DNA of 39,884 bases, taken from Alphaproteobacteria bacterium. Its GTDB lineage: Bacteria; Pseudomonadota; Alphaproteobacteria; CAAHEQ01; UBA3637. Both the position numbers and the translations under genes were made by a program. Positions 21,381 through 39,884 of this stretch are shown here, piece by piece. Numbering within the stretch: position 1 is the first letter of the stretch; every line of letters starts with the position of its first letter. Where the stretch lies: the NCBI GenBank assembly GCA_015062385.1, contig SUUT01000013.1, positions 1 to 39,884 on the forward strand, given 5' to 3'. A model generated the notes under the pieces. It saw nothing but the letters and a program-made list of their open reading frames with translations, was not told the origin of the DNA and did not search any database.

Positions 21381-22397
21381 ATGAAGCAACAGTTATTAAA
21401 AAATACAATTATCGCCGGTGTAATGACGTGTGCATTTGGGATGATAAGTGCCTGTACCTCTTTGGGGGATTCGGAAGATACAGTTTTGGTATCTGAAAAA
21501 TCAACGGCAAAAGCAACACAAACAGTTTGTACGGCAGAAAATCAGGGGAATTGTATTGTGACATATGAAGAACCGGATTTGAATTTGGCTCAGGCTTACT
21601 CCGGTTATGCGGTCAGTACAAATGCTTCTTATCAGGCGGGGGCGGTTCCAATGGCTTTATCTGCACCGGCTTCCCAAAGTGGTATGTCTGTTAAAGAACG
21701 GATGCGTCAGAAAGAATTGGCACAACAACGGGCAGATTTGGCATTACAGCCGGTTCAAAGTGGAGATATTGTTTGTGCCGGAGCAGATTGTGCGAATGCT
21801 TTATTTAAAACAGAAATAGAAAAAACAATACATACAAAAATGATTGAAGAGGGGCAAAGTAATTCTGTTTATGTTGCGGCACAAACTGGTTCGGTTGCTC
21901 AAAAAGTACCGGCATCTCAAAATGATGCTTCTTCTGTAATGGCAAAAGGAGCAACAGGGGTTCCGGTTGTTGGGGTAGCTCAAACGGGAGGTGTTCAGTC
22001 AAATGTTTTATCTGGTGAAAAAGCGGTATCAGCGGTTACACAGAGTGCAGTTGAAAACAAAGCAGAAGCTGTATCGGAAAAAACAGAAACAAAGATGACA
22101 TCTTTAAAAGCAAAAATTGCATTTGGGGAAGAAGTGCATGATTGGGAAGCTCCGGCGGGAGAAACGTTGCGGACATTGCTTATGCAGTGGGGGGAAGCTT
22201 CCGGTTGGACGGTTGTTTGGAAAATGGATCGGGATTATAATTTAGAAGCAGGTGTCGTTTTCCGTGGAAAGTTTACAGAAGTTGCTGCTGCTTTTATCCG
22301 TTCATTTGCTCGGGCAACACCGGCACCGATTGGTACGTTCTATAAAGGGAACAGAGTTTTGGTAATTAACACGCAGGAGAATGATAATGCTGACTAA
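21381..22397 (+). CDS. TcpQ-domain lipoprotein (PilL-like) of a type IVb pilus
   Basis: 338 residues. A lipoprotein signal ends with the lipobox ISAC (Cys25). The central region is low-complexity Gln/Ala/Ser/Val-rich. The C-terminal ~85 residues match the TcpQ/PilL C-terminal domain: VHDWEAPAGETLRTLLMQWGEASGW, a TVVWK strand, an acidic NLEAGVVFRGKF segment, AAAFIRSFA and a final RVLVIN strand (longest motif shortened here: HDWEAPAGETLR). TcpQ helps the secretin reach or stay in the outer membrane in Vibrio TCP and R64 pili. It overlaps pilN by 11 bp, so the two are co-translated. Confidence 0.82.
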   Translation: MKQQLLKNTIIAGVMTCAFGMISACTSLGDSEDTVLVSEKSTAKATQTVCTAENQGNCIVTYEEPDLNLAQAYSGYAVSTNASYQAGAVPMALSAPASQSGMSVKERMRQKELAQQRADLALQPVQSGDIVCAGADCANALFKTEIEKTIHTKMIEEGQSNSVYVAAQTGSVAQKVPASQNDASSVMAKGATGVPVVGVAQTGGVQSNVLSGEKAVSAVTQSAVENKAEAVSEKTETKMTSLKAKIAFGEEVHDWEAPAGETLRTLLMQWGEASGWTVVWKMDRDYNLEAGVVFRGKFTEVAAAFIRSFARATPAPIGTFYKGNRVLVINTQENDNAD

Positions 22398-24036
22398 ATC
22401 AATTAAATTAAGTCTTACGGGGATTTTAATGGCGGCAACTTTTATGTTGAATGCTTGTAATGAATATGTTGCCAGAACAAATGAAAAAATCGAAACAACA
22501 TTGGAACGGGTGGAAGAGCATTTGCAACAATCTCAAATTCCTGATTTGCCGGCTCCGGTTGATACGGTGCGTACCAAAAATGATATTTGGTTGGGAACGG
22601 AAAGTGTAAAAATTTCCGAAGGAGATGCTTTGCCGGCTATGTTTGAAGATAATGACTCTATTACATTATCTATTGCTGAAGAAACAACTTTGCCGACATT
22701 GGCGCAGGAAATTACGGATATGACCGGTATTACGGTTAGATTGGATAATTTAAAAGCAGAAGATGCCATTCCGACCGAAACGGTTCCGTTTAACTATACG
22801 GGTAAATTGAGTGGTTTATTGAATTATGCTTCTAATCGGTATGGTGTATGGTGGAGATATAAATCCGGCATTATTACCTTTTACACAAAAGAAACACGTG
22901 TGTTCAATATTTATGCTTTACCGACTGAAACATCAATCAATGCTTCATTAAGCGGGGCAACAATGGGAGAAGGGGGCGGAAGTTCCAGTTCATCGTTGTC
23001 ATCTTCTGCAAATTTGGCTCTTTGGGATAATATAGAGCAAGGTTTGGAACAAGTTGTGGGAGAAAACGGCAAGTTATCATTTAGCCGAGTTGCTGGTACA
23101 GTAACAGTGACGGGTAGTCCGTTTGTTATTCGTGAAGCAGCAGATTGGATTGCAAAGTTTAATGAAAAATTGTCTCGTCAAGTTGCAATTTCTGTAAAAG
23201 TATTGTCTGTTTCTGTTTCAAATGCAGATAATTATGGTTTGGATTTAACGGGGATTTTTACAAACAAAACAATTCAGGCAAATTATACAAGTCCATTTAC
23301 AATTGGGGCAACAGGTAGTGCAGGAGCTGCTGCCGGTATGCTTTCTATGACATTATTAAAACCGAGTTCTAAATGGAAAGATTCAAATGCTGTTATTCAA
23401 GCTTTCTCCTCACAAGGAAAAACGTCTTTGGTAACATCTGCCAGTGTGACTACATTAAACAATAAAGTTGCACCAATTCAAATTACAACACAACAAAACT
23501 ATGTGAAAGAAACAAATGTATCTACATCAGGTACAGGTTCAGATAGAAGTGTTGATACTGATATGGAAACAGATACATTGAATTATGGGTTTATGTTGGA
23601 GGTTTTACCAAGAATTTTAGATCATGGTCGATTAATCGTATTGTTCTCCATGAACTTAACTGATTTACTTTCATTAGAAACTTTCTCATCTGACGGTTCA
23701 AGTTCTGAAGACGGTGCAGAAGCATCTGATTCAAGTGACAGTTCCGATACTGAAAGTGAAAGTGGAGATAAAGAAACAACAGTTGTTCAATTGCCAAAAA
23801 TGCAAACACGTGGTTTTGTTCAGGAAATTGCAATGCGTTCCGGTTCCACATTGGTTTTAACCGGATTTGAACAAGTTAAAAATAACATAACAACCGGCGG
23901 TATTGGCAAGGCAAAAATGGGTTTGCTTGGTGGACAGGCATACAGTGACAATACCCGTGATGTAATGGTGATTTTATTAACGCCGGAAGTTTTGGAATCT
24001 CCGTTGTCACCGGAATCACGTATGCGAGATTTTTAA
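22387..24036 (+). CDS. pilN: PilN-family type IVb pilus secretin (outer-membrane lipoprotein)
   Basis: Start chosen at 22387 because AGGAG at 22375-22379 is correctly spaced for it and too close to the in-frame ATG at 22381. 549 residues with lipobox LNAC. An N-terminal helical region is followed by an STN/N0-like domain (TLPTLAQEITDMTGI near 100) and a second N domain near residue 230 (SRVAGTVTVTGSPF). The C-terminal secretin domain spans ~270-540, including SASVTTLNNKVAPIQ, LEVLPRILDHGRL and LPKMQTRGFVQEI. A Ser/Asp-rich loop interrupts it near 440. PilN forms the gated outer-membrane ring through which the thin pilus passes (R64 PilN, BfpB, TcpC family). Confidence 0.93.
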   Translation: MLTKSIKLSLTGILMAATFMLNACNEYVARTNEKIETTLERVEEHLQQSQIPDLPAPVDTVRTKNDIWLGTESVKISEGDALPAMFEDNDSITLSIAEETTLPTLAQEITDMTGITVRLDNLKAEDAIPTETVPFNYTGKLSGLLNYASNRYGVWWRYKSGIITFYTKETRVFNIYALPTETSINASLSGATMGEGGGSSSSSLSSSANLALWDNIEQGLEQVVGENGKLSFSRVAGTVTVTGSPFVIREAADWIAKFNEKLSRQVAISVKVLSVSVSNADNYGLDLTGIFTNKTIQANYTSPFTIGATGSAGAAAGMLSMTLLKPSSKWKDSNAVIQAFSSQGKTSLVTSASVTTLNNKVAPIQITTQQNYVKETNVSTSGTGSDRSVDTDMETDTLNYGFMLEVLPRILDHGRLIVLFSMNLTDLLSLETFSSDGSSSEDGAEASDSSDSSDTESESGDKETTVVQLPKMQTRGFVQEIAMRSGSTLVLTGFEQVKNNITTGGIGKAKMGLLGGQAYSDNTRDVMVILLTPEVLESPLSPESRMRDF

Positions 24037-24048
24037 GGAGTTCTTCAT

Positions 24049-25374
24049 ATGGCTGAAGGGATAGAAAATCAAATGAATACGGTGGGCGGATATGATCCGA
24101 ATCAAAATGGATCTATTACCATCAATCGGCGAGAATATGCAGTTGGATTGTTATGGCAACCTTTGCAAAACTCCGATGAACCGTTTTCAGAAATTCGTGA
24201 AGCAATAGACAGTGATCCTGAGGCAGATTTATATTGCTTGCGTTCAACGTCAACGCCACAATATGGTATTGGTAAAAAAAGCATGAAGCATCGGGCAGGG
24301 GAGCCGTCTGCTGCTGCTGCTGTTGCTTCTGCATTGAGTGAATATACATCTGTTGCCGCAGTTTTTCCCGTGCCGGAAGGTTGGTGGCTTGTTGCTATTC
24401 GAAATGATTTAATCTTATCGGAAGAAGATGTTTTATATACATCTGAACAGGATGCCCAAAATAAGTATTATTCATTAATGTCTTTACCGGATTGGGATTT
24501 AAAAATTGCTCCGGAAAGTTGGGCAATTGATAAGTCACGGCAAATTTCTTTAGAGACATTATTGAAAAAAGCTGGTGCCAAAGTTGTTTTAGAAGAGTTA
24601 GGAGCAGTAAAGAAAACACAAATTTTAACATTTATTGCGTTGGGATTTGTTGGTCTTATCTTCTTTTTACTTTATCTAGTTTCTTCTTTATGGAAGTCGG
24701 CATTTACGGAAGAAAAAATTGAAGCTGTTGCCATTCCGGAGGTTATTCAGCCTGTTGAACCTGTTCCTGAAAAGCCAAAACCTTGGGAAAAAGTTCCTAA
24801 AATGGATGTGTTTTTGCACAAATGTTGGAACAATGCTTATCAATTGACAAGTTTAACCATTCCTGGTTGGCAAATTGGACAGATTAATTGTAATTTGCAG
24901 GGTTTAACGACCGGTTGGTCTAAATCATGGAATAGTGCCGGACGGATTGCTTGGTTAAAAGCTGCTTTGAATGAGTACAAAATGTCTCGAGTAAATGTTC
25001 AATTAAATCAAGATGGAACCTCAGCAACCGGACAATTATCATTTACAGATATACCGATGGTTGCTTCCGTTCCGACAATTGAAGAAAGTCAACTGTGGGA
25101 TGAATTGACGGATATTCGTCAAGCAACCAACATTCAATTGAATTTTTCAAGACAAACAGTTATGGACCCGCCGAATAATCCGGATGGAACACGTCCACCC
25201 AATCAACAGGAATATGTATTTTTTCAGTTTTCAATTTCGTCGCCGTATTCACCATTTGAATGGTTGACGTTCTTTGAAAAGTTTCCAGGTTTGGAATTAA
25301 CATCAATCAACTTTAATCCGGGGTTGGATGCTCAGGATAAATGGAAATATGAGGGGAGAATTTATGCAAAATAA
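24049..25374 (+). CDS. pilO: PilO type IVb pilus accessory protein
   Basis: 441 residues with AAGGAG before the ATG. The N-terminal domain (~1-180) matches PilO of the R64 family: INRREYAVGLLW, DLYCLRS, then VFPVPEGWWLVAIR and a PDWDLKIAPESWAI block. One transmembrane helix (ILTFIALGFVGLIFFLLYLV, ~192-211) is followed by a periplasmic domain rich in Trp. PilO is an inner-membrane bitopic component linking the cytoplasmic ATPase platform to the secretin. It lies 12 bp after pilN and overlaps pilP by 11 bp. Confidence 0.9.
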   Translation: MAEGIENQMNTVGGYDPNQNGSITINRREYAVGLLWQPLQNSDEPFSEIREAIDSDPEADLYCLRSTSTPQYGIGKKSMKHRAGEPSAAAAVASALSEYTSVAAVFPVPEGWWLVAIRNDLILSEEDVLYTSEQDAQNKYYSLMSLPDWDLKIAPESWAIDKSRQISLETLLKKAGAKVVLEELGAVKKTQILTFIALGFVGLIFFLLYLVSSLWKSAFTEEKIEAVAIPEVIQPVEPVPEKPKPWEKVPKMDVFLHKCWNNAYQLTSLTIPGWQIGQINCNLQGLTTGWSKSWNSAGRIAWLKAALNEYKMSRVNVQLNQDGTSATGQLSFTDIPMVASVPTIEESQLWDELTDIRQATNIQLNFSRQTVMDPPNNPDGTRPPNQQEYVFFQFSISSPYSPFEWLTFFEKFPGLELTSINFNPGLDAQDKWKYEGRIYAK

Positions 25375-26386
25375 TTCATTATCTTTATTAGCGACACTTT
25401 GTTTGTCAACCGCTTTTTTTGTTTCTCCGGTTTATGCACAAAATGCTCCGCAACCTCTGACTGGAGCAACTGCCGGTTCAGAATTGATTCCGGCAGATAC
25501 ATCAGCGGATACCGGATTGCCGAATACTATGGATGCCGGAAAAGCACAGGAAAAACAACTTTTGGAAGCAGAATTAAGTAATACAGCTGTTAGTTCATCG
25601 GAAATTTTGGATTTTCCGGCACGGACATCATTAGGTGAATTGGAAATGGCAACCTTACCGGGAATTAAGGAATCTTTGATTACAGGTCCGGCTCCAATGG
25701 CTCCGTCTGTATCCACCAAAGATTTACCAAGTGAACAATTGTTGGGACGTATTACATCAGAAGTTTTTCAGGAAATGGCTGATTTAGAACGAGGTAATGT
25801 CTTTTTAAAACTTCAAATGCAAAAAGAACAATTAAAAAATGATTTGGAAAAATTAAAAGCAACATATCGTCAAACACGTTTAGAAGAAATTGCCAAGAGG
25901 GAAGATGTTGTTCGTTCTCGTATTAATTGGTGGCAAGAACAAGAAAATGTTCGGCTGGAAATGGAAAAGAAAAAAGCCGAAACAGATGCAATTGAACAAC
26001 AGATTGCAGAAGCTGAGGAATTGCGGAACAAGTTAAGAGAAGAAGCAATGGCTGAAAAAGAAGCCGCACAAAAAGCAGATGCCGATTCGAAAGAAAAAGG
26101 TAGTTTAGTAGAAACAGAACAAAAAGAAGAAACGAAAGCTACTAAACGAGCGACTGAGTTGTATACATTAATTGGTGTGCGAGGTGTTAAGACAAAATTA
26201 ACGGCACGATTAAAAAATTTAGTAGATGGCAGTATTATTTCGGTTAAAGTAGATGAAGTATTACCATCGGGACATAAAGTTTCTGTCATAGAACGTGAAT
26301 CTATTACATTAATCAATGGCTCGAAAGAAGAAGTATTGCTTTTGAATAATAAGGGCGGTATTGCATCAACGAATGTCGAAGATTAG
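25364..26386 (+). CDS. pilP: PilP type IVb pilus biogenesis protein
   Basis: Start at 25364, preceded by GAGGGGAG; the longer frame overlaps pilO too far. 340 residues. The signal peptide is cleaved near VYA-QN. A Pro/Thr-rich segment is followed by a long coiled coil (~130-255, many E/K/Q heptads such as EEIAKREDVVRSRINWW). The C-terminal PilP domain is LYTLIGVRGVKTKLTARL...GSIISVKVDEVLPSGHKV...ERESITLINGS. PilP is a periplasmic partner of the secretin. The coiled coil is longer than in plasmid PilP proteins, judged from memory. Confidence 0.87.
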   Translation: MQNNSLSLLATLCLSTAFFVSPVYAQNAPQPLTGATAGSELIPADTSADTGLPNTMDAGKAQEKQLLEAELSNTAVSSSEILDFPARTSLGELEMATLPGIKESLITGPAPMAPSVSTKDLPSEQLLGRITSEVFQEMADLERGNVFLKLQMQKEQLKNDLEKLKATYRQTRLEEIAKREDVVRSRINWWQEQENVRLEMEKKKAETDAIEQQIAEAEELRNKLREEAMAEKEAAQKADADSKEKGSLVETEQKEETKATKRATELYTLIGVRGVKTKLTARLKNLVDGSIISVKVDEVLPSGHKVSVIERESITLINGSKEEVLLLNNKGGIASTNVED

Positions 26387-26417
26387 ATGAAGTAAGGAAA
26401 ATGAGGGGGACAGTCAA

Positions 26418-28532
26418 ATGAAAGCATCCTTTTTCGGGACACGACCGAATAAGCGAGGAAATGAGCCTTTGTCGGTTCAAATTAAGCCGGCAGCCGGTGC
26501 ATCCTCTGCAAACGAATTATTGGATGTTTCTCATATTGAAATTCCGGAAACCGGAGGTTTTCCGGAGGAAGAATTACCTAAAATTCCAAATCTGCCCCCA
26601 TTTCCGTCTTTTATGAATGAGAGTCAATCTTCGTCAGACACGTCTATTGATGAGAATCAGATTCAAGAAGTTCATCAGGAAGCAGAAGTTGTTGAAGCGG
26701 TAAGTACAGACTCTATTTCTCAAACAGAGGATGAAGTTGGAAACAATGCACATAGTCCGGTGTTTATGCCCCCGAAAGCTCCGACTTTTACCAATGAGAA
26801 TGAATCTGAACAAAAAGCACAAAATACCCAAGAGAAAAAAGAAGAGACAGCAGAAGGAAACAGGGAAGAACTACATGCTGCCGTTCAAGATGCTTTTTTA
26901 AAGGACACAACACAAGCCCCGTTGATACAACATAATAAAGATTATAATTCTCCCTCATTTTTAAAAGATTTATTTGATAACGGAAATGTGTGTATTACAG
27001 CATCAGGTGGTTCGTTACCGATTAAAGATGAAACACGAATGTTGTTGGCTCTTTTTTCCAACGGTCGCTTTTTTGTTTGTGAAACATATAAGTTTGATGG
27101 TAAGGTTTTAGGTTTTGAATATTTAGCCAAAAAACGGCATTTGCAAATTGGAAAACCGGAATATGTTCCGATGCCTGTTTTGCAGAGTATTTATGAATAT
27201 TCGACACGTAATGGATTTACCGAAACGGTTGAAGTTGATAAGAATGAAGAACAAGAGCAGGCACAAGCTCGTATGCAACGGGATTTTATTACAATTATTT
27301 CCCGTGCAGCTGCTTTACACGTATCTGATATTCATATCGTTGTTGCAGACCATACAACGGTTATGTTCCGTGCAAACGGGTTAATGCAAACAGAAATGGA
27401 ATATAATAAAGATTGGGGTGAAAGTTTTGTTCGTGCCGCATTTGCTTCTTCTGATATTTCCGATTCAAACTATGCGCAAAATGAATATCAGGCAGCTCAG
27501 AAGTTAGGGCGAACACCGTTAAGAGGATCTCACGGGAAATTGGTTTTACCTCGAAATATTTTAGGTATTCGTTTGCAATTTAATCCGATTGCTTTTGGTA
27601 CACGGTATGTTATTATGCGGTTGTTGTATGCCGAAGATACATCCAGTACATCTACGGGATTGGAGGCACTTGGTTTTACGGAACGAGAGTTGAATTATTT
27701 TTATCAATTACGGGCGGCTCCAACGGGAATTACGATTGTTTCGGGTCCGACAGGGTCGGGAAAATCAACGACCTTGCAACGAAATATGATTCAGATGTTG
27801 CAGGAACGCAACTTTGAAATTAACCTAATTACTGTGGAAGATCCGCCGGAATATCCAATTCCTGGAGCAAGACAGATGCCTGTGACAAATGCTACCATTG
27901 AGGAATCCAAGGACAGAGAGTTTACAAAAGCGTTGTCAGCAGCATTGCGTTCTGATCCGGATAGTTTGATGATTGGGGAGGTACGAACGTTATCTGCTGC
28001 TGATTTGGCTTTCCGAGGAGCTTTATCTGGACATAACGTGTGGACAACATTACACGCCAATAGTGCTCCGGCTATTTTAATGCGCTTAAAGGATTTAGGG
28101 GTGGAAGATTTTAAATTGCGTGATCCTGAAATTATTAAAGGATTATTGGCACAACGTTTGTTCAGACGAATTTGTCCTCATTGCCGTATTCCTGCAACGA
28201 AAAAATTAAATTCTCCATCCGTTATTCGTTTGAGAGAGGGATTTGGTGATGTTGGTGTTGAAAGTTCCTTCTTACGGGGAAAAGGTTGTAAACATTGTGA
28301 TTTCAGAGGGGTTAAAGGACGGATGTCTGTTGCTGAAATTATTTTGCCGGATGCAACATTCCTTGATTTAGTTATGAAAGGCGAAACGAAAAAAGCCATT
28401 AACTATTGGATTAATGATTTAAATGGTATGACATTACGAGAAGTTGCTATTTCCCATATGTTTAGAGGTTTAATTGATGTGGATGAAGTAGAACGGTGGA
28501 CCGGATTCTTAAATCAGGTGGTGACCGGTTAG
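26418..28532 (+). CDS. pilQ: PilQ pilus assembly ATPase (GspE/PilT superfamily)
   Basis: 704 residues. The N-terminal ~170 residues are Glu/Pro/Ser-rich and probably disordered, followed by a non-catalytic N domain. The ATPase core has Walker A GPTGSGKS near 445, the Asp box VEDPPEYP, Walker B MIGEVRT near 520 and the His box TTLHANS near 548. A four-cysteine zinc site is present, CPHC near 590 and CKHC near 631. All catalytic features are intact. It hydrolyses ATP to drive pilin polymerisation through PilR. It follows pilP by 31 bp with GAGGGGG as ribosome-binding site. The long disordered leader is unusual for the family. Confidence 0.95.
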   Translation: MKASFFGTRPNKRGNEPLSVQIKPAAGASSANELLDVSHIEIPETGGFPEEELPKIPNLPPFPSFMNESQSSSDTSIDENQIQEVHQEAEVVEAVSTDSISQTEDEVGNNAHSPVFMPPKAPTFTNENESEQKAQNTQEKKEETAEGNREELHAAVQDAFLKDTTQAPLIQHNKDYNSPSFLKDLFDNGNVCITASGGSLPIKDETRMLLALFSNGRFFVCETYKFDGKVLGFEYLAKKRHLQIGKPEYVPMPVLQSIYEYSTRNGFTETVEVDKNEEQEQAQARMQRDFITIISRAAALHVSDIHIVVADHTTVMFRANGLMQTEMEYNKDWGESFVRAAFASSDISDSNYAQNEYQAAQKLGRTPLRGSHGKLVLPRNILGIRLQFNPIAFGTRYVIMRLLYAEDTSSTSTGLEALGFTERELNYFYQLRAAPTGITIVSGPTGSGKSTTLQRNMIQMLQERNFEINLITVEDPPEYPIPGARQMPVTNATIEESKDREFTKALSAALRSDPDSLMIGEVRTLSAADLAFRGALSGHNVWTTLHANSAPAILMRLKDLGVEDFKLRDPEIIKGLLAQRLFRRICPHCRIPATKKLNSPSVIRLREGFGDVGVESSFLRGKGCKHCDFRGVKGRMSVAEIILPDATFLDLVMKGETKKAINYWINDLNGMTLREVAISHMFRGLIDVDEVERWTGFLNQVVTG

Positions 28533-28554
28533 AAAATTTAATAAGGAGTTCTGA

Positions 28555-29679
28555 ATGGCAGAAGTAAAGAAAAAGAAAGTGGTTGTGGCAAGTTCGGTCA
28601 GTTCGGCAGATATGTTTTTTGCAAAATGTATGGTTCGGTTATATACATCGGATAGATTGGCATTTTATTATAAATTAAAAGCATTGCTTCGCAACCGATT
28701 TTCTTTGATGGATGCTTTAGAACGGATGTATCAGATTTATTCGAAAGATGGAAAAAAGCCGACTGAATCAATGGCGGTTGCCATTACATGTTGGATGCAA
28801 CAAATTCGAAACGGGGATACTTTTTCTGTTGCTTTGCGTGGATGGGCTCCTTCGACGGAATTATTGATGTTATCTGTTGGTGATGTTTCTAACTTAGAAG
28901 ATGCTTTAGGGAATACCATTAAGGTTGTTGAAGGGATGAATCGGATGAAAGAGCCGGTTTTTACGGCGGTTTCATACCCGATGTTCTTGTTAATTATGGT
29001 TATTCTTTTGATTTATGGCGTTGGTGCATTCATGGTGCCCCCGATGGTTAACGCTGTTCCGAATTTGGTATGGACGGGTACGGCAAAATCATTGGTTGAT
29101 TTGTCTAATTTTGTGAGAGATAATCCTTGGCCGTTATTTTTAACGCTTCCGTGTATTATTTTTGTTGTATTACTGACTTTTCCACGCTGGAAAACAGAAT
29201 CTCGCTCAATTGCCGATAAATGTGCTCCGTGGTCAATTTATCGTATTTTTATCGGGGTTGGTTGGTTGTTGTCGTTATCAGCTTTGGTTCGTGCCGGTAC
29301 GCCGGTTTCTAAGGCAATGCGTTCTTTGCGGGCGGATGCTTCTCCATATTTGTTATATCGGATTGATAAAGCATTAAGTTATGTTAATAACGGGGATAAC
29401 TTGGGTGATGCTTTATATAAAACAAGACTTGGTTTTCCGGATGAGGAAGTTGTTGGCGATTTACGGATTTATGCCGAGTTGGATAACTTTCCGGAAGCTT
29501 TAACCCGTTTATCAGAAGATTGGTTGGAAGATTCTATTAAAGACATTGAGAAGAAAGCTGCTTCATTAAATGGGTTTGCCATTATTATGATTGCCGGCAT
29601 TGTTGCGTGGGCAGTTATGGGCACCTTTGACATGCAGGAACAAATGGTTAACGGTATGGGCTTAGGTGGTGGCGGTTAA
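28555..29679 (+). CDS. pilR: PilR inner-membrane platform protein (GspF family)
   Basis: 374 residues with two GspF-like halves. The N-terminal cytoplasmic half (~20-140) contains ALLRNRFSLMDALERM. TM helices lie at ~148-172 and ~192-212. The second cytoplasmic half is ALVRAGTPVSKAMRSL...YRIDKALSYVNNGDNLGDAL, and a final TM helix lies at ~342-362 (AIIMIAGIVAWAVMGTF). It is the rotating platform on which the ATPase acts. It is the last gene of the operon; a terminator follows 30 bp later. A Gly-rich end (GLGGGG) is present. Confidence 0.93.
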   Translation: MAEVKKKKVVVASSVSSADMFFAKCMVRLYTSDRLAFYYKLKALLRNRFSLMDALERMYQIYSKDGKKPTESMAVAITCWMQQIRNGDTFSVALRGWAPSTELLMLSVGDVSNLEDALGNTIKVVEGMNRMKEPVFTAVSYPMFLLIMVILLIYGVGAFMVPPMVNAVPNLVWTGTAKSLVDLSNFVRDNPWPLFLTLPCIIFVVLLTFPRWKTESRSIADKCAPWSIYRIFIGVGWLLSLSALVRAGTPVSKAMRSLRADASPYLLYRIDKALSYVNNGDNLGDALYKTRLGFPDEEVVGDLRIYAELDNFPEALTRLSEDWLEDSIKDIEKKAASLNGFAIIMIAGIVAWAVMGTFDMQEQMVNGMGLGGGG

Positions 29680-34691: not shown

Positions 34692-37397
34692 TTATTTTGG
34701 AATACAATATAATTTTTCTCCATCTTGGGAAATATCCCCATTTGCATTTTTACAAAGTTGTTGTGATGTGATATCTATACCGATTTCATTATCTATAGTT
34801 GAAATACCTGTTCGGCATTCACCGGAGATATCTTGCCAATCACCGTCTTCACAGATTAGTACACACGCATAAGTATTTGTACCTGTTTGCATCACTCTGC
34901 GATTGGAACAAGATGTACATAATTGTTTTGAATCAGTTGAATCTGCAATTGCAACAGCTGTTTCCGTGTTGCAAGAAATACATCTATTATTTATTGATAA
35001 GAATGTAATTGTTTGTTCACAACCTGCTTTAATACAATAGGAATCGTCCGTAAATCGTCGTAAATCACCACAAGATTCACATTGTTTTTGTGTTGTTTTA
35101 TAAGCGGCATCAGAGGTACACGAACGACATTTCCAATCGTTATCTCGATAAAGTGTTCCGATTCCTGCCGGATAGTTGGGAAAATTATCCGGATCCGGAC
35201 TGTCACTATTACAAACACCATATGTGCCGGGTTTATACAATATACATTTATTATCAATGTACATACGTTTATTTATTATGCAATTATTTTCGCAAAGCTC
35301 TTTTGAATCAACTTTGTAATGTGGATATGTCATACTGCTACATGGCTCACAAGAGTTGATGGCAAAACGGAATGTTTCACTTGGACACGTTGTTAATGAA
35401 CAGTAACGGGCTTTGGAACCACCGGTTAATGAATATGTTTTTGTTGCGGTACTGCAATTTGCACACATATCTGTAAAAATTTGGGAGGGCGGGTATCCAC
35501 TTGACCATTGAGTTCCTAAATCAGTGCATTTTTTACATTCGCCGTTATCTCCTCGTTGTACATAACCTTCTCCACAATCATTATAACAATATAACTTGTT
35601 TTCTCTTTCATCAATCCATCTTTTTTTTACATCTGTATATCCCTGTCCCTCATTGGCGATATTACATTTTGTGCAACCGGAGGCTTCATCACTTTCAATT
35701 TCAATAGGGCCTTGTGTATCACAGGAGCGACAAATTTTATTTTTATCCATAACATATCCGGCTGGGCAGACTTCTAAATCTAATACACAATTTCCATTAA
35801 CGTATTTTCTATTTGGATTTCCTTTTTCATCTTTACACGCATTACATAAGTTAATTCCATCAACGGAGCAATCACCTGTTTCGTTAATACATAAAGATAC
35901 AACTTTCGGAGATGAACAAGGATAACAGACTCCTGTACTGCTGACAAATTCATTTGTATTACATTTTGTTGTGCAAAAAGGATTTAGATTTGATATCCGA
36001 TGTATTGTTTTTCCGGGGCAAGCCGAACATTCATTTTGCCAAGCCTGTTTTAATTCATCGGGAATCGTTTGTTTGTACATTTGAGCCCCGTAATTATCAA
36101 AACACATAGGCCATTTATCGCTATAACAATCAGAATTATCTTGTTTGTTAATTTCACATGAACGACAAATACCATCAGCTTTAAAATAACCAGTTGGACA
36201 GTTTTTTAAAACACATTTATTGTTTCCGTATAGTATGCGATTGCTACATGATTGACACAAAGAGCGAGATTGTTCATCATCTGGTATTGTTAAAATAGCC
36301 CAGTTTCCGTATGTTTCTAAATCTGTTTGTACGTGAATTCGTCCGGAATTAGATACTTTTTCAGAAGTTCCCGAACAAGGTAAACAATCGTATTGTGTTG
36401 TTAAAAACTCCTTACCTCTGATACAAGTTGAAGCACAATATGTTGTTCGGTTGTCATTTTTACCGGTTTCGGCAATGCGTTTACCATTATTACAGGCTTG
36501 ACACATTTCAATTCCACTATGAGAATCTTTGATTTCAATATTTCCGACTTTTTTTTCAAAAATTCCGTCATTATCATCTGCATTTTGAAGTATTATATTT
36601 GCGTTAAAAGTGCATTGTACACAGGAACCATTGGCAGCACGATATTCTTTGCCAAACTTATCACCCTCTCCGCATGTTTGTGGGAGATCAACGCATTTAT
36701 GTGTTGTTGGTTCACATACTTGATTTTGATTTAGACAATCTGTATTTACCAAACATTCAACGCAAATACCGTCATTATTGTTTTCTAAGCAAAAGGGTGT
36801 ATTGGTATCACTACATTTATTATGACACATCATATCATCTTCACAGGTAGCTGTTCCACATGCTTGGGAGCAATCTGTGTCTTCAATACAATATTGAGAA
36901 TTTTCCAAATTCTCTGAATTAATGAATGATGTAAAAACTATTTGATTATCAGATTTGGCTTCTGTACAAAGATTTGAATTATTATTATATTTAATATTAT
37001 TGACTTGAATAAATTGCAAACCCTGAATAATTTGATTTAATTTCATATTCAAAACTTGTTTACAAACATTTTGAGGTATGTTTTCTACAATAATTTTAAA
37101 TGCAACATCAGGGTGTGTTGTTATTCGGATGGGATATCCTGTTTGTGTTTTATTATTCCATTCGGGAAAAGCGGTTTTGTCCGTATTATTCTCTGTTTCC
37201 GGCAGCGGAATATTTTGAAATCTATGATAAATATCAGATGCACGTGCATTAACTTCTCCGACAATATCATTTGCCTGATATTTATCCATGGCAAATTTAT
37301 ATCCCATTATCCCGCCAACACTTAATACACCGACAACAGCTAAAACACCCAATATTTCTACCATTGAACGACCAAATTCGTTAACTTTGTTTTGCAT
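34692..37397 (-). CDS. Type IV prepilin-like protein with giant cysteine-rich ectodomain
   Basis: 901 residues; AAAGGAG precedes the ATG. The N-terminus is a class III prepilin signal: short leader ending in G9, then RSMVE with the essential Glu at mature position 5, followed by the hydrophobic helix ILGVLAVVGVLSVGGIMGY. A PilS-like globular region (~35-165) includes two cysteines (NVCKQVLN and SNLCTE) that could form the pilin disulfide. From ~168 on there are dozens of cysteines in short modules (CxxDTDCSQAC, CxSC, CPTGYF, CxPC and similar) that look like EGF/TNFR/GCC-type repeats. The likely role is a minor pilin or tip adhesin processed by a prepilin peptidase and assembled by the type IVb machinery at 20250-29679. 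Pili normally use pilins of 150-200 residues; the closest functional analogue is R64 PilV, a pilin with a C-terminal adhesin. Confidence 0.88.
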   Translation of the reverse strand: MQNKVNEFGRSMVEILGVLAVVGVLSVGGIMGYKFAMDKYQANDIVGEVNARASDIYHRFQNIPLPETENNTDKTAFPEWNNKTQTGYPIRITTHPDVAFKIIVENIPQNVCKQVLNMKLNQIIQGLQFIQVNNIKYNNNSNLCTEAKSDNQIVFTSFINSENLENSQYCIEDTDCSQACGTATCEDDMMCHNKCSDTNTPFCLENNNDGICVECLVNTDCLNQNQVCEPTTHKCVDLPQTCGEGDKFGKEYRAANGSCVQCTFNANIILQNADDNDGIFEKKVGNIEIKDSHSGIEMCQACNNGKRIAETGKNDNRTTYCASTCIRGKEFLTTQYDCLPCSGTSEKVSNSGRIHVQTDLETYGNWAILTIPDDEQSRSLCQSCSNRILYGNNKCVLKNCPTGYFKADGICRSCEINKQDNSDCYSDKWPMCFDNYGAQMYKQTIPDELKQAWQNECSACPGKTIHRISNLNPFCTTKCNTNEFVSSTGVCYPCSSPKVVSLCINETGDCSVDGINLCNACKDEKGNPNRKYVNGNCVLDLEVCPAGYVMDKNKICRSCDTQGPIEIESDEASGCTKCNIANEGQGYTDVKKRWIDERENKLYCYNDCGEGYVQRGDNGECKKCTDLGTQWSSGYPPSQIFTDMCANCSTATKTYSLTGGSKARYCSLTTCPSETFRFAINSCEPCSSMTYPHYKVDSKELCENNCIINKRMYIDNKCILYKPGTYGVCNSDSPDPDNFPNYPAGIGTLYRDNDWKCRSCTSDAAYKTTQKQCESCGDLRRFTDDSYCIKAGCEQTITFLSINNRCISCNTETAVAIADSTDSKQLCTSCSNRRVMQTGTNTYACVLICEDGDWQDISGECRTGISTIDNEIGIDITSQQLCKNANGDISQDGEKLYCIPK

Positions 37398-37418
37398 AAT
37401 CTTCTCCTTTATAACCTC

Positions 37419-37437
37419 ATACTCATAAAATGAGTAT
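37419..37437. promoter_or_regulatory. Perfect inverted repeat in the leader of the cysteine-rich prepilin gene
   Basis: ATACTCAT (37419-37426) and ATGAGTAT (37430-37437) with a 3-nt spacer, 22 nt upstream of the minus-strand ATG. The right arm contains TATACT on the minus strand, which could act as a -10 box, but no good -35 is visible. It may be an operator or a leader hairpin. Confidence 0.45.
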
Positions 37438-37606
37438 AAAAAAAGGAACCTTTTTTTCCCTATTCGAATCGAAAGAATCGGATTTTAAAAAAATAAAAGA
37501 TTATTATTTTAATTGAGTAATTTATTTAAAATTAAAAAAAATGCTAAAAAGTGAAAAAAAGTGTTGCATTTATACGTTCCTTTTTTTACAGATAAAATAA
37601 GAAACC

Positions 37607-37667: not shown

Positions 37668-37693
37668 GTTTTTTATTGAATGAAAGGAAAAAA

Positions 37694-37989
37694 ATGAAAA
37701 CAATTTCATCACTTATCCGTAATTTACGGAAAAAAAAGAGTTAACACAAGAAGAACTAGCTGAATTGATGGATGTTTCAACGCTCTCAATTAGCAATATG
37801 AAACGAGGCAAACACTTTCCATCTGCTAAAAATTTAAATAAGTTAATAACAATATTTGAACTGCAAAATCAATTAGAATTACTCTCGCTATTTTTAACCT
37901 CTGATTCGGAAAAACAAAAATATTTACTGCAATTAGCAACCTATTCAGAGAAAAAATTAGAAGAAATCATTTTATTATTTCAACAGTGA
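37694..37989 (+). CDS. XRE-family helix-turn-helix regulator requiring a -1 frameshift
   Basis: The frame starting at ATG 37694 (AAAGGA 6 nt upstream) encodes MKTISSLIRNLRKKKS and stops at 37742-37744. The rest of the protein is in the -1 frame from 37738: ELTQEELAELMDVSTLSISN, then MKRGKHFPSAKNLNKL and a leucine/glutamate-rich tail to TGA at 37987-37989. Joined, they give a 98-residue protein with a normal XRE/Cro-like HTH (helix 2 LTQEELAELM, recognition helix STLSISNMKRG). The junction is an A8 run containing A_AAA_AAG. Options are programmed frameshifting, phase variation by homopolymer length, a true pseudogene, or a sequencing error. Position between two cysteine-rich protein genes suggests control of one of them, which is inference. 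Confidence 0.75.
37732..37738 (+). other. Candidate -1 ribosomal frameshift heptamer A_AAA_AAG
   Basis: The heptamer is in the correct phase relative to the zero frame (codons AAA AAA AAG) and is followed by AGT TAA, one codon before the zero-frame stop. Slipping back one base reads GAG next and restores the HTH protein. This is the same heptamer used by E. coli dnaX. No clear Shine-Dalgarno stimulator lies upstream. A 9-bp hairpin with a bulge (37759-37768 with 37786-37794) lies 20 nt downstream, farther than usual. Confidence 0.55.
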
Positions 37990-38017
37990 AACAAGTAAAA
38001 TATTAAAGGCTTCCTAG

Positions 38018-38052: not shown

Positions 38053-39884
38053 TTATTCACAGATACCATATTCCGCATTCCAATTTGGACGAATAGACGG
38101 ACACCCCTCACATGATTCCCCATTCCAGATAGGCGTACTACCCGAACAGGTCGGAATACATTTTTTCTGATAAGTGCCGGTAACTTTGCCTTTTCCGGTA
38201 CAAGTTCCAGTTCCTCCTGCTGGTGGATTTTGACAATAATTTATACTTCCTGTCACAATTGTTGTTCCGGGTCCTGCCCAATGATTCTCACAATAGCGAA
38301 GCCCTGGACCCCAAAAATCTTGTTCAAAATATAAAGCATAAATTGTTTTAGCTCTAACGGTTACACCATAATTAGTATACCCACTTGTTGCAACTAATCT
38401 ACCAACCGAAACACTACCAGAACCATTAGATAAAATGCCTCCGCCCGAATAACTAGAAGCATATAAATCCTGAAAAGAAGATGTGCCTGCGACATGACTG
38501 AACGTTTGAACTCTTGCTTTTCCTGTTACAGTTAATGAGCCTTTAGTATTATATAAAGCACCTTTTAAATCAATTGTCCCAATTTTCATAATATTAGAAT
38601 TAATAAAAGATGCTATCCCAATTAAGTGATTAGCGGTTAATGTTCCATTATTTTGAAATGATGCCCCCCATGTTGTACCTTGCGAACTAATAACAGTATC
38701 AATATTCATTACTCCATCATTTATAATAATTATTTCACTTAAATAGTTTCCTGAAGAATCTTGAATCGGTGCCGACTGCATTCCTTCTAGTATACCGGCA
38801 GTTAGTTTACCTGTACTTTGATTATGAACACCATGAGCATATCCATTTCCATAAACTTTGTTTGTAACTGTTATCGTTCCTGCATTATTAATTCCGTTGG
38901 ACGTTGAACTGGTTGCAGAAACATTTTTTGCTTTTAATGTAATTCCAGAATTAACCGTTAATGTCCCTTTTACAACCAAATTACAGTCAGATATATCTAA
39001 ATTTTTGGATACTGTCATATTTGTATTATATGTAACTGTGTCACCCGAAGCACTGTAATTTGTTAAACCAATATTCTTTATCTGATTTCCACACCACGTT
39101 GATAAAATAGTGCACTGTGTTCCGTCCCAATAAGGATTGGCTGTCGGACAGGCTTCACAAGCACTTGTTGATGTATTCCACTTCGGTTTTGCATTGTTAA
39201 CTTCGTAACACGTTTTACACGTTTGTGTAGCTGTGTCCCAATATGGTTTTGCTGTTGTACAAGCAACACATTGTTTGTTTGTGCTGTCCCATGTCGGTTC
39301 GTCACTCGGACATGTTGTACAGGTCAATCCGTTCCAATATGGTTTGCTTTCATCTGCTTGATAGCATTTAACGCATTTGTTCGTACCACTTTGATAATAA
39401 GGCGTATCACTTGGACAAGCACAACTTCCCCCACTCCACACTTTCGGAGCATAACATGTATCCTGTGTTGAGCCTGTTGTCACACACTTTTTCGATGAAG
39501 CACTCCATGAACCACTGGAACAAACACATTTTTTATTTGTACTGTCCCATGAGGCATTCGTTCCCGCACAATAGGTACAATTATCGCCATAATACCCTGT
39601 TTTACAAACACAGGCTTTTTTGCTGGCATTCCATTCTCGGCTCGTCTGCGTACACGTACACTTATTGTTTGTACTATCCCATTTTGTGTAATTGCCGGCA
39701 CAATACGTACAACTCGGTCCGTAATAATTCGTATTACAGATACATTTATTTTGCGTTGTGTTCCATGTGCTATTCGCTAATGTACACGTACATTTATTAT
39801 TCGTGCTATCCCATTTTGAATTGGCTCCCGCACAATAGACACAACTCGGTCCATAATAGTCTGTATCACAAACGCAGGCTGTTC
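38053..39884 (-). CDS. Cysteine-rich protein with EGF-like tandem repeats and beta-helix region, 3' part
   Basis: The frame is open to the window end with no stop between 39483 and 39884, so a GTG at 39483 is only an internal codon and the gene is 5'-truncated. About 610 residues are visible. The N-terminal visible part has about three 44-residue units with CxC...YYGPSCxYCAG...WDSTNxKC, resembling EGF/laminin-EGF modules. Next come shorter CPSDxPYW-type cysteine motifs. A cysteine-poor region of about 250 residues, rich in N, G, S, T and V, has short strand repeats (GTLTVNSG, GTITVTN, GSLTVTG) typical of right-handed parallel beta-helix surface proteins. It ends with two more cysteine modules (CEGCPSIRPNW). 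It is probably an exported adhesin related to the protein at 34692-37397; its N-terminus, which would decide between pilin and autotransporter-like export, is outside. Confidence 0.8.
   Translation of the reverse strand, partial: TACVCDTDYYGPSCVYCAGANSKWDSTNNKCTCTLANSTWNTTQNKCICNTNYYGPSCTYCAGNYTKWDSTNNKCTCTQTSREWNASKKACVCKTGYYGDNCTYCAGTNASWDSTNKKCVCSSGSWSASSKKCVTTGSTQDTCYAPKVWSGGSCACPSDTPYYQSGTNKCVKCYQADESKPYWNGLTCTTCPSDEPTWDSTNKQCVACTTAKPYWDTATQTCKTCYEVNNAKPKWNTSTSACEACPTANPYWDGTQCTILSTWCGNQIKNIGLTNYSASGDTVTYNTNMTVSKNLDISDCNLVVKGTLTVNSGITLKAKNVSATSSTSNGINNAGTITVTNKVYGNGYAHGVHNQSTGKLTAGILEGMQSAPIQDSSGNYLSEIIIINDGVMNIDTVISSQGTTWGASFQNNGTLTANHLIGIASFINSNIMKIGTIDLKGALYNTKGSLTVTGKARVQTFSHVAGTSSFQDLYASSYSGGGILSNGSGSVSVGRLVATSGYTNYGVTVRAKTIYALYFEQDFWGPGLRYCENHWAGPGTTIVTGSINYCQNPPAGGTGTCTGKGKVTGTYQKKCIPTCSGSTPIWNGESCEGCPSIRPNWNAEYGICE
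39487..39884. repeat. 132-bp tandem repeats encoding EGF-like units
   Basis: The core GT(A/G)CT(A/G)TCCCAT recurs at 39539, 39671 and 39803, exactly 132 bp apart (44 codons), with flanking sequence similar at both DNA and protein level. The array continues beyond the window, so the copy number is unknown. Confidence 0.85.

Follow-up and report, generated by a model that had tools for sequence, protein, structure and literature searches.

The window analyzed here, a stretch of 39,884 nucleotides on contig SUUT01000013.1, belongs to an alphaproteobacterial genome of 1.81 Mb assembled in 45 contigs (99% complete). On its minus strand, an open reading frame at 34692-37397 runs from an ATG start to a stop at the expected end and encodes a 901-residue prepilin with a cysteine-rich tail; a ribosome binding site, AAGGAG (37404-37409, minus strand), lies upstream of the ATG. 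The protein begins with the leader MQNKVNEFG (37371-37397, minus strand), for which cleavage is expected after G9, and continues as RSMVEILGVLAVVGVLSVGGIMGYKFAMDKY, which places E14 at +5 and constitutes a class III prepilin signal. An earlier note on this DNA had claimed such a signal, dozens of cysteines and an ectodomain of approximately 730 residues. All three are borne out, by G9 followed by RSMVE and a hydrophobic N-terminal helix that spans residues 5-60 in a structure model, by 76 cysteines (two in residues 1-165 and 74 in residues 166-901, with 18 CxxC motifs in the tail), and by a tail of about 735 residues.

A type IVb pilus assembly operon lies 5 kb from the window gene, as the same note had stated, and occupies 21381-29679 on the plus strand. 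Its six genes encode a TcpQ-like protein (21381-22397), the PilN secretin (22381-24036), PilO (24049-25374), PilP (25328-26386), a PilQ-type ATPase (26418-28532) and PilR/GspF (28555-29679). Upstream of the window gene is a DNA switch at 37437-37588 (arms included), absent from the earlier note and described below. Beyond it we observed the remnant of a divergent XRE-type HTH regulator gene (37690-37990, plus strand), with a frameshift at an A-run near its start and the HTH part ELTQEELAELMDVSTLSISNMKRGKHFPS in another frame; a homologous flank is found upstream of the paralogue L058. The contig ends within a second cysteine-rich repeat protein (38053-39884, minus strand) with W(N/D)..C..CP repeats and a beta-rich-looking section, for which a Pfam search returned no match.

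The pilin head and the cysteine-rich tail

The head comprises residues 10-165 (36903-37370, minus strand) and the tail residues 166-901 (34695-36902, minus strand). By both profile comparison and structural modelling, residues 10 to about 160 are a type IVb pilin head. A PDB search with a profile of the family heads matched TcpA (E 8.7e-4) and the CFA/III pilin (E 0.013), and the Pfam PilS model matched the best single family head at E 4.4e-12 and the window head at E 0.025. A model of residues 1-275, built from four sequences and of low confidence (mean pLDDT 48), nevertheless has type IVb major pilins in the first seven places of a structural comparison, namely PilS, TcpA in its classical and El Tor forms, the filaments of TCP and CFA/III, and CofA, with Z scores of 8.2-9.5 and an rmsd of 2.6-4.1 A across 109-140 residues. 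The Z scores for PilS (9.5), TcpA (9.4) and CFA/III (9.0) stand above those for the minor pilins CofB (6.2) and TcpB (5.4). In an alignment of 51 family heads, G9, R10, S11, E14, G23 and C112 are invariant and C144 is conserved in at least 90%; a disulfide between C112 and C144 is predicted. The earlier note had named two observations that would count against its reading, namely the loss of a pilin fold after the N-terminal helix and the absence of a prepilin peptidase gene. The type IVb head is found after the helix in model and profiles alike, and one prepilin peptidase is encoded at C3:29636, within about 1 kb of a pair of short pilin genes (C3:28025, 28555), so that assembly genes and prepilin peptidase are both present in the genome.

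Regarding the tail, the full window protein has no match in Pfam, NCBIfam, PHROG or the PDB, and EGF, TNFR and ephrin-receptor-like models are not found in it at E<=1 (Pfam). The EGF/TNFR-like modules that had been proposed for it are thus unsupported by Pfam, NCBIfam or the PDB. A separate model of the tail, covering residues 165-430, shows repeated small beta hairpins (mean pLDDT 50). Among 70 scanned members of the family introduced below, 13 match teneurin-type EGF models, down to E 1.3e-45, and six match ephrin-receptor-like modules. Strong teneurin-type EGF repeats in these bacterial tails are seen in L034 (C7:28243; Pfam E 4.5e-32) and related members. A kinship of the large members with Netrin-1, suggested by one weak PDB profile match (E 0.83), was put down to cysteine composition and rejected. 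The number of cysteines is even in 57 of the 71 large members, which fits disulfide pairing (binomial p 1.3e-7, overstated since related genes were treated as independent), and the genome encodes two DsbA-type proteins.

Pilin-like signals can have non-filament roles, and filament incorporation would have to be presumed here for proteins of up to 3845 residues; the prepilin signal might accordingly serve as a cleavable anchor or export signal for periplasmic or surface cysteine-rich proteins that are not pilus subunits. We regard this as unlikely, if the most serious of the alternatives considered, as each of the 70 aligned large members retains the type IVb head with its cysteine pair, rather than the signal helix alone, the genome holds a type IVb assembly operon together with short major-pilin-like genes, and pilins onto which large modules are grafted have been described (PMC8179133).

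The family of pilin-headed genes

The head of the window gene has 107 matches in its own genome by sequence and 103 by profile, and 100 family open reading frames were recovered from the stretches fetched around head matches. The window gene is not a singleton but one of approximately 100 paralogues. Complete large members number 71 and range from 337 to 3845 aa, with medians of 692 aa and 62 cysteines, while 12 complete short members (121-181 aa, mostly with two cysteines) look like major or ordinary pilins; the remaining 17 are partial, mostly cut by contig ends. Together the 100 reading frames span 162 kb, or 8.9% of the genome, and an in-frame stop was seen in just one weak head match. The member of 3845 residues (L051:504-12038, plus strand) contains 197 cysteines and has a head without the usual second cysteine. 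In contigs C2, C12, C13, C18, C19, C25, C28, C45 and others, the break falls within the switch or the opening codons of a family gene, and the assembly consequently conceals further members and their order.

These numbers bear directly on the earlier reading of the protein as a giant minor-pilin adhesin. The pilin identity, the retained head, a tail rich in disulfides and the connection with type IVb machinery all stand, while the single minor pilin does not. A singleton adhesin of this kind would suit the window gene itself, but it can hardly be maintained next to about 100 paralogues with the same head type, most of which have the same switch. Homologues with a shared N-terminus and differing cysteine tails, which the note had proposed to look for, are what this family supplies within one genome, and pilin-headed genes occur in related genomes as well.

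Tails diverge far more than heads among the paralogues. Close paralogues have heads that are 93-99% identical and tails that are 34-91% identical, and for the pair L032/L106 the dS is 0.05 in the head and 1.03 in the tail, from which we read the heads as homogenised and the tails as replaced or diversified. Orthologues of the source genome in the sister species G008 show dN/dS values of 0.11-0.30 and are, as judged from these codon comparisons, under purifying selection. The G008 orthologue of the window gene (L022:4001-6705, plus strand) is split by a frameshift into 288 and 604 aa, with clustered differences at codons 27-38 and a second fragment that is 98.7% identical, which suggests local gene conversion or an assembly error.

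The promoter switch and its orientations

Alignment of the DNA upstream of the start codons revealed a box shared by nearly all large genes, which is one end of a segment of 127 bp. Inverted repeats flank this segment, with AAAAAAAGGNAC as the far arm and GTNCCTTTT as the arm next to the gene, and the switch so formed precedes 89 of the 100 family members. The segment measures 127 bp in all 79 OFF loci cut at fixed geometry, with a mean identity of 84%. At the window gene, an arm search placed the right arm, GTTCCTTTTTTTA in gene orientation, at 37437-37449 and the left arm, TAAAAAAAGGAAC in gene orientation, at 37576-37588; they enclose an invertible segment of 126 bp (37450-37575) that is now OFF and has the opposite orientation at the paralogues L058, L070 and L041. 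The inner-left junction AARGGNACGTATWAWTGCAAC occurs in 118 copies in the genome (<=3 mismatches), compared with none for a reversed-pattern control, and most copies precede pilin-headed genes or sit at contig ends. Of the copies retrieved separately, a few precede non-pilin genes, whose products are thymidylate-kinase-like (L160), lectin-like and secreted (L164), or an ankyrin protein (L165). Clusters of short pilin genes (L028, L047 and L048) have a related, longer switch upstream, with an interior of 150-151 bp, and that of L048 is ON.

The arms flank a promoter element just upstream of the gene, in the manner of an inverton. In the ON orientation, TTGCAA/T adjoins the gene-side arm to give TTGCAA-17 nt-TACACT/TATAAT, with an imperfect -35 box (TTGCAA) and the -10 box at or just past the outer edge of that arm, whereas in the OFF orientation the same place reads GGGAAAAAAAG, without a -35 box. 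At the window gene, the final two bases of the right arm also belong to the -10 box TATACT (37433-37438, minus strand), whose remainder lies outside the segment on the gene side, and the -35 box TTGCAT (37564-37569, plus strand) currently faces away from the gene. When the segment is inverted in silico, TTGCATTTATACGTTCCTTTTTTTATACT (TTGCAT-17 nt-TATACT) arises ahead of the ribosome binding site; the present orientation has no such promoter. By the junction rule, the assembled states of the 100 members are 83 OFF, 6 ON and 11 undecided. Degenerate left arms are found at several ON loci (L030, L031_009, L041 and L058), and part of the ON loci may therefore be locked.

Pairs of related loci in opposite orientations record the inversion itself. 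The ON locus L070 and the OFF locus L079 encode proteins that are 81% identical and have gene-side flanks that are 100% identical, while their interiors are 99% identical when inverted and 49% when compared directly. Similarly, the interior at L058 (ON) is 88% identical to that of the window gene (OFF) when inverted versus 46% directly, with a far flank 92.6% identical over 269 bp, and it is 84% identical when inverted versus 48% directly to the interior at its OFF orthologue in G008 (90% identical over the tail). L041 (ON) and its G008 orthologue (96% over 593 residues) have an identical gene-side flank and the orthologue has an OFF junction, although its contig ends at the junction and the last bases alone are informative. 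Seen in orthologues of the two species as well as in close paralogues, these opposite orientations show, from comparison of the assembled DNA, that inversions occurred at the same loci in the past. Both orientations at one locus are thus seen across species and paralogues rather than within one population, and they suggest that the segments may flip actively in living cells.

With 83 of 89 loci in one orientation and several ON loci carrying one degenerate arm, the inverted repeats could also be viewed as fixed regulatory or terminator hairpins, the ON loci being old, dead rearrangements outside any active phase variation. We consider this very unlikely. In addition to the inverted interiors of orthologues and of near-identical paralogues (the 99% inverted identity above), the core base N of the arms covaries: it differs among loci (G 59, T 19 and A 2 in the left arm), yet it is equal in both arms in 80 of 80 pairs from the arm search, where chance would give approximately 0.60 per locus if the arms were independent, and in 77 of 77 loci where the left core was found at fixed geometry, a procedure with no preference for matching arms. 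Moreover, 77 of 79 OFF loci have a -10-like hexamer (at least 4/6) next to the gene, compared with 12 of 79 that have one at the far end; the promoter of the window gene exists only after inversion; and other species have different switches with the same core. The repeats are thus better understood as parts of an invertible promoter.

Candidate invertases, known systems and possible biological role

Pilin-headed genes occur in all 34 searched genomes of the taxonomic family, at 6-103 copies each, and among 24 genomes of other families a pilin-head match was found in just two. The sister species G008 has 38 copies of the same switch, at both ON and OFF loci, and is the only relative that shares the switch pattern. 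Within the genus, seven of eight G003 genes examined are preceded by an inverted repeat that is longer (23-34 bp) and of different sequence, built around the core ACGTCCCTTTT; in another genus, one of two G026 genes follows a repeat of 28 bp that surrounds ACGTTCC. Promoter-like elements around ACGTAC in G004, G006 and G009 (same genus) have repeats no longer than in shuffled sequence, and switches there are suggestive only; none was seen at the four G012 genes searched.

The favoured candidate for flipping all of the switches is a serine recombinase assigned to the 'master DNA invertase Mpi' family, encoded at C26:78020 next to dnaA and an Hsp20 gene, which scores 271.5 bits against NF009949 (curated cutoff 272); a truncated second copy and one fragment are also present. 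Mpi relatives were found in 27 of 34 genomes of the taxonomic family (own included) and in none of 24 genomes from other alphaproteobacterial families, and seven genomes of the family have pilin-headed genes but no Mpi match. Three short genes for FimB-like tyrosine recombinases (L111, L112 and L113; 126-202 aa) could instead encode the flipping enzymes, since L111 and L112 weakly match 'tyrosine-type DNA invertase' models and lie within about 3 kb of family genes. FimB-like genes are placed at C12:71129 and C12:131571. Their role as flipping enzymes seems improbable given that Mpi-family genes, the ones surveyed in this way, track the taxonomic family, and that each site has a short palindromic core whose central base varies, with ACGTNCC retained in relatives. 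That core, with its variable base, resembles Mpi sites, in keeping with the preference for the serine recombinase.

Collectively, the available data make it likely that the window gene belongs to a family of about 100 modular type IVb pilins under promoter-inversion control, with inversion choosing which members are expressed. The prepilin peptidase would process the large members and the PilN/O/P/Q/R machine encoded 5 kb away would handle them, while their cysteine-rich tails would undergo oxidation in the periplasm and, most likely, be exposed on the outside at the pilus tip or else as a cell-bound, pilus-assembled protein. The longest members may be anchored rather than pilus-assembled, and those the size of L051, at 3845 aa, may not pass the secretin as pilus subunits. 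Site-specific inversion of the roughly 127-bp segment, which carries the -35 box, would pick expression by joining this box to the fixed -10 box (ON) or pointing it away (OFF), with one Mpi-family serine invertase as the candidate flipper of all switches. Most genes would be OFF and, we infer, few ON per cell at any time, yielding a population that differs in surface ectodomains. The benefit would presumably lie in adhesion, antigenic variation, or evasion of immunity or phages. A bolder version, to which we give somewhat less than even weight, is that a single type IVb pilus is re-tipped by some 90 promoter flips under one master invertase, effectively showing one or a few of about 85 cysteine-rich tip ectodomains at a time, with heads homogenised and tails diversified by recombination, and hence antigenic variation on the scale known from eukaryotic parasites.

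Several known systems share parts of this design. In Bacteroides fragilis, Mpi inverts 13 regions (PMC4747536); its capsule loci are likewise served by a single master serine invertase family and by numerous short invertible promoters at distant positions, with surface structures as the targets. The present case differs in being alphaproteobacterial, in its approximately 90-118 switches, in targets that are single genes of one pilin-headed family, and in that only the -35 box moves while the -10 box is fixed. The PilV shufflon of IncI plasmids (R64, TP114), with eight PilV variants (PMC9045228), also varies the C-terminal tip domain of a type IVb minor pilin by site-specific DNA inversion, but there a tyrosine recombinase swaps 3' ends within one gene, whereas here complete genes each have a promoter switch. 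A PilV-type shufflon was accordingly rejected, as each variant is a separate complete reading frame with its own head and the inversion lies in the promoter. The analogy to R64 PilV drawn in the earlier note remains a fair picture of display; variation, however, would arise by gene choice through promoter inversion, given about 100 complete paralogues nearly all behind an invertible promoter, and not by exchange of 3' ends.

In CofB and TcpB of the CFA/III and TCP pili, too, a large additional part follows the type IVb pilin head (PMC9565799), and the head model matches both; each is encoded by a single gene, and their domains are of beta-rich trimerising and lectin-like kinds, in contrast to the disulfide-rich tails spread here over about 70 complete genes. 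Modular pilins such as S. sanguinis PilB, described for more than 1,200 proteins in 264 architectures with an extreme of 860 residues (PMC8179133), likewise graft a functional module onto a pilin, without the cysteine-rich tails of up to 3845 aa or the genome-wide switchable repertoire seen here. As 181 invertons were detected in one genome of Mitsuokella multacida (PMC11892184), the number of switches alone is not unprecedented; what differs is that one shared site type mostly serves one surface protein family. We found no description of one site type serving one pilin-headed family at such a scale in the open-access literature searched.

To our knowledge, gut alphaproteobacteria of this kind have been little studied. 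Taken together, the results describe a gut-type alphaproteobacterium in which about a hundred surface genes, amounting to 9% of a 1.8-Mb genome, form a switchable repertoire, and a combination of two known devices, modular type IVb pilins and Mpi-type promoter inversion. Questions that become testable are how one invertase sets the states of approximately 100 switches, whether re-tipping of a pilus is feasible, and which selective force in the gut favours this diversity, be it host immunity, phages or partner cells. The cell can probably choose which pilin-headed proteins reach its surface.
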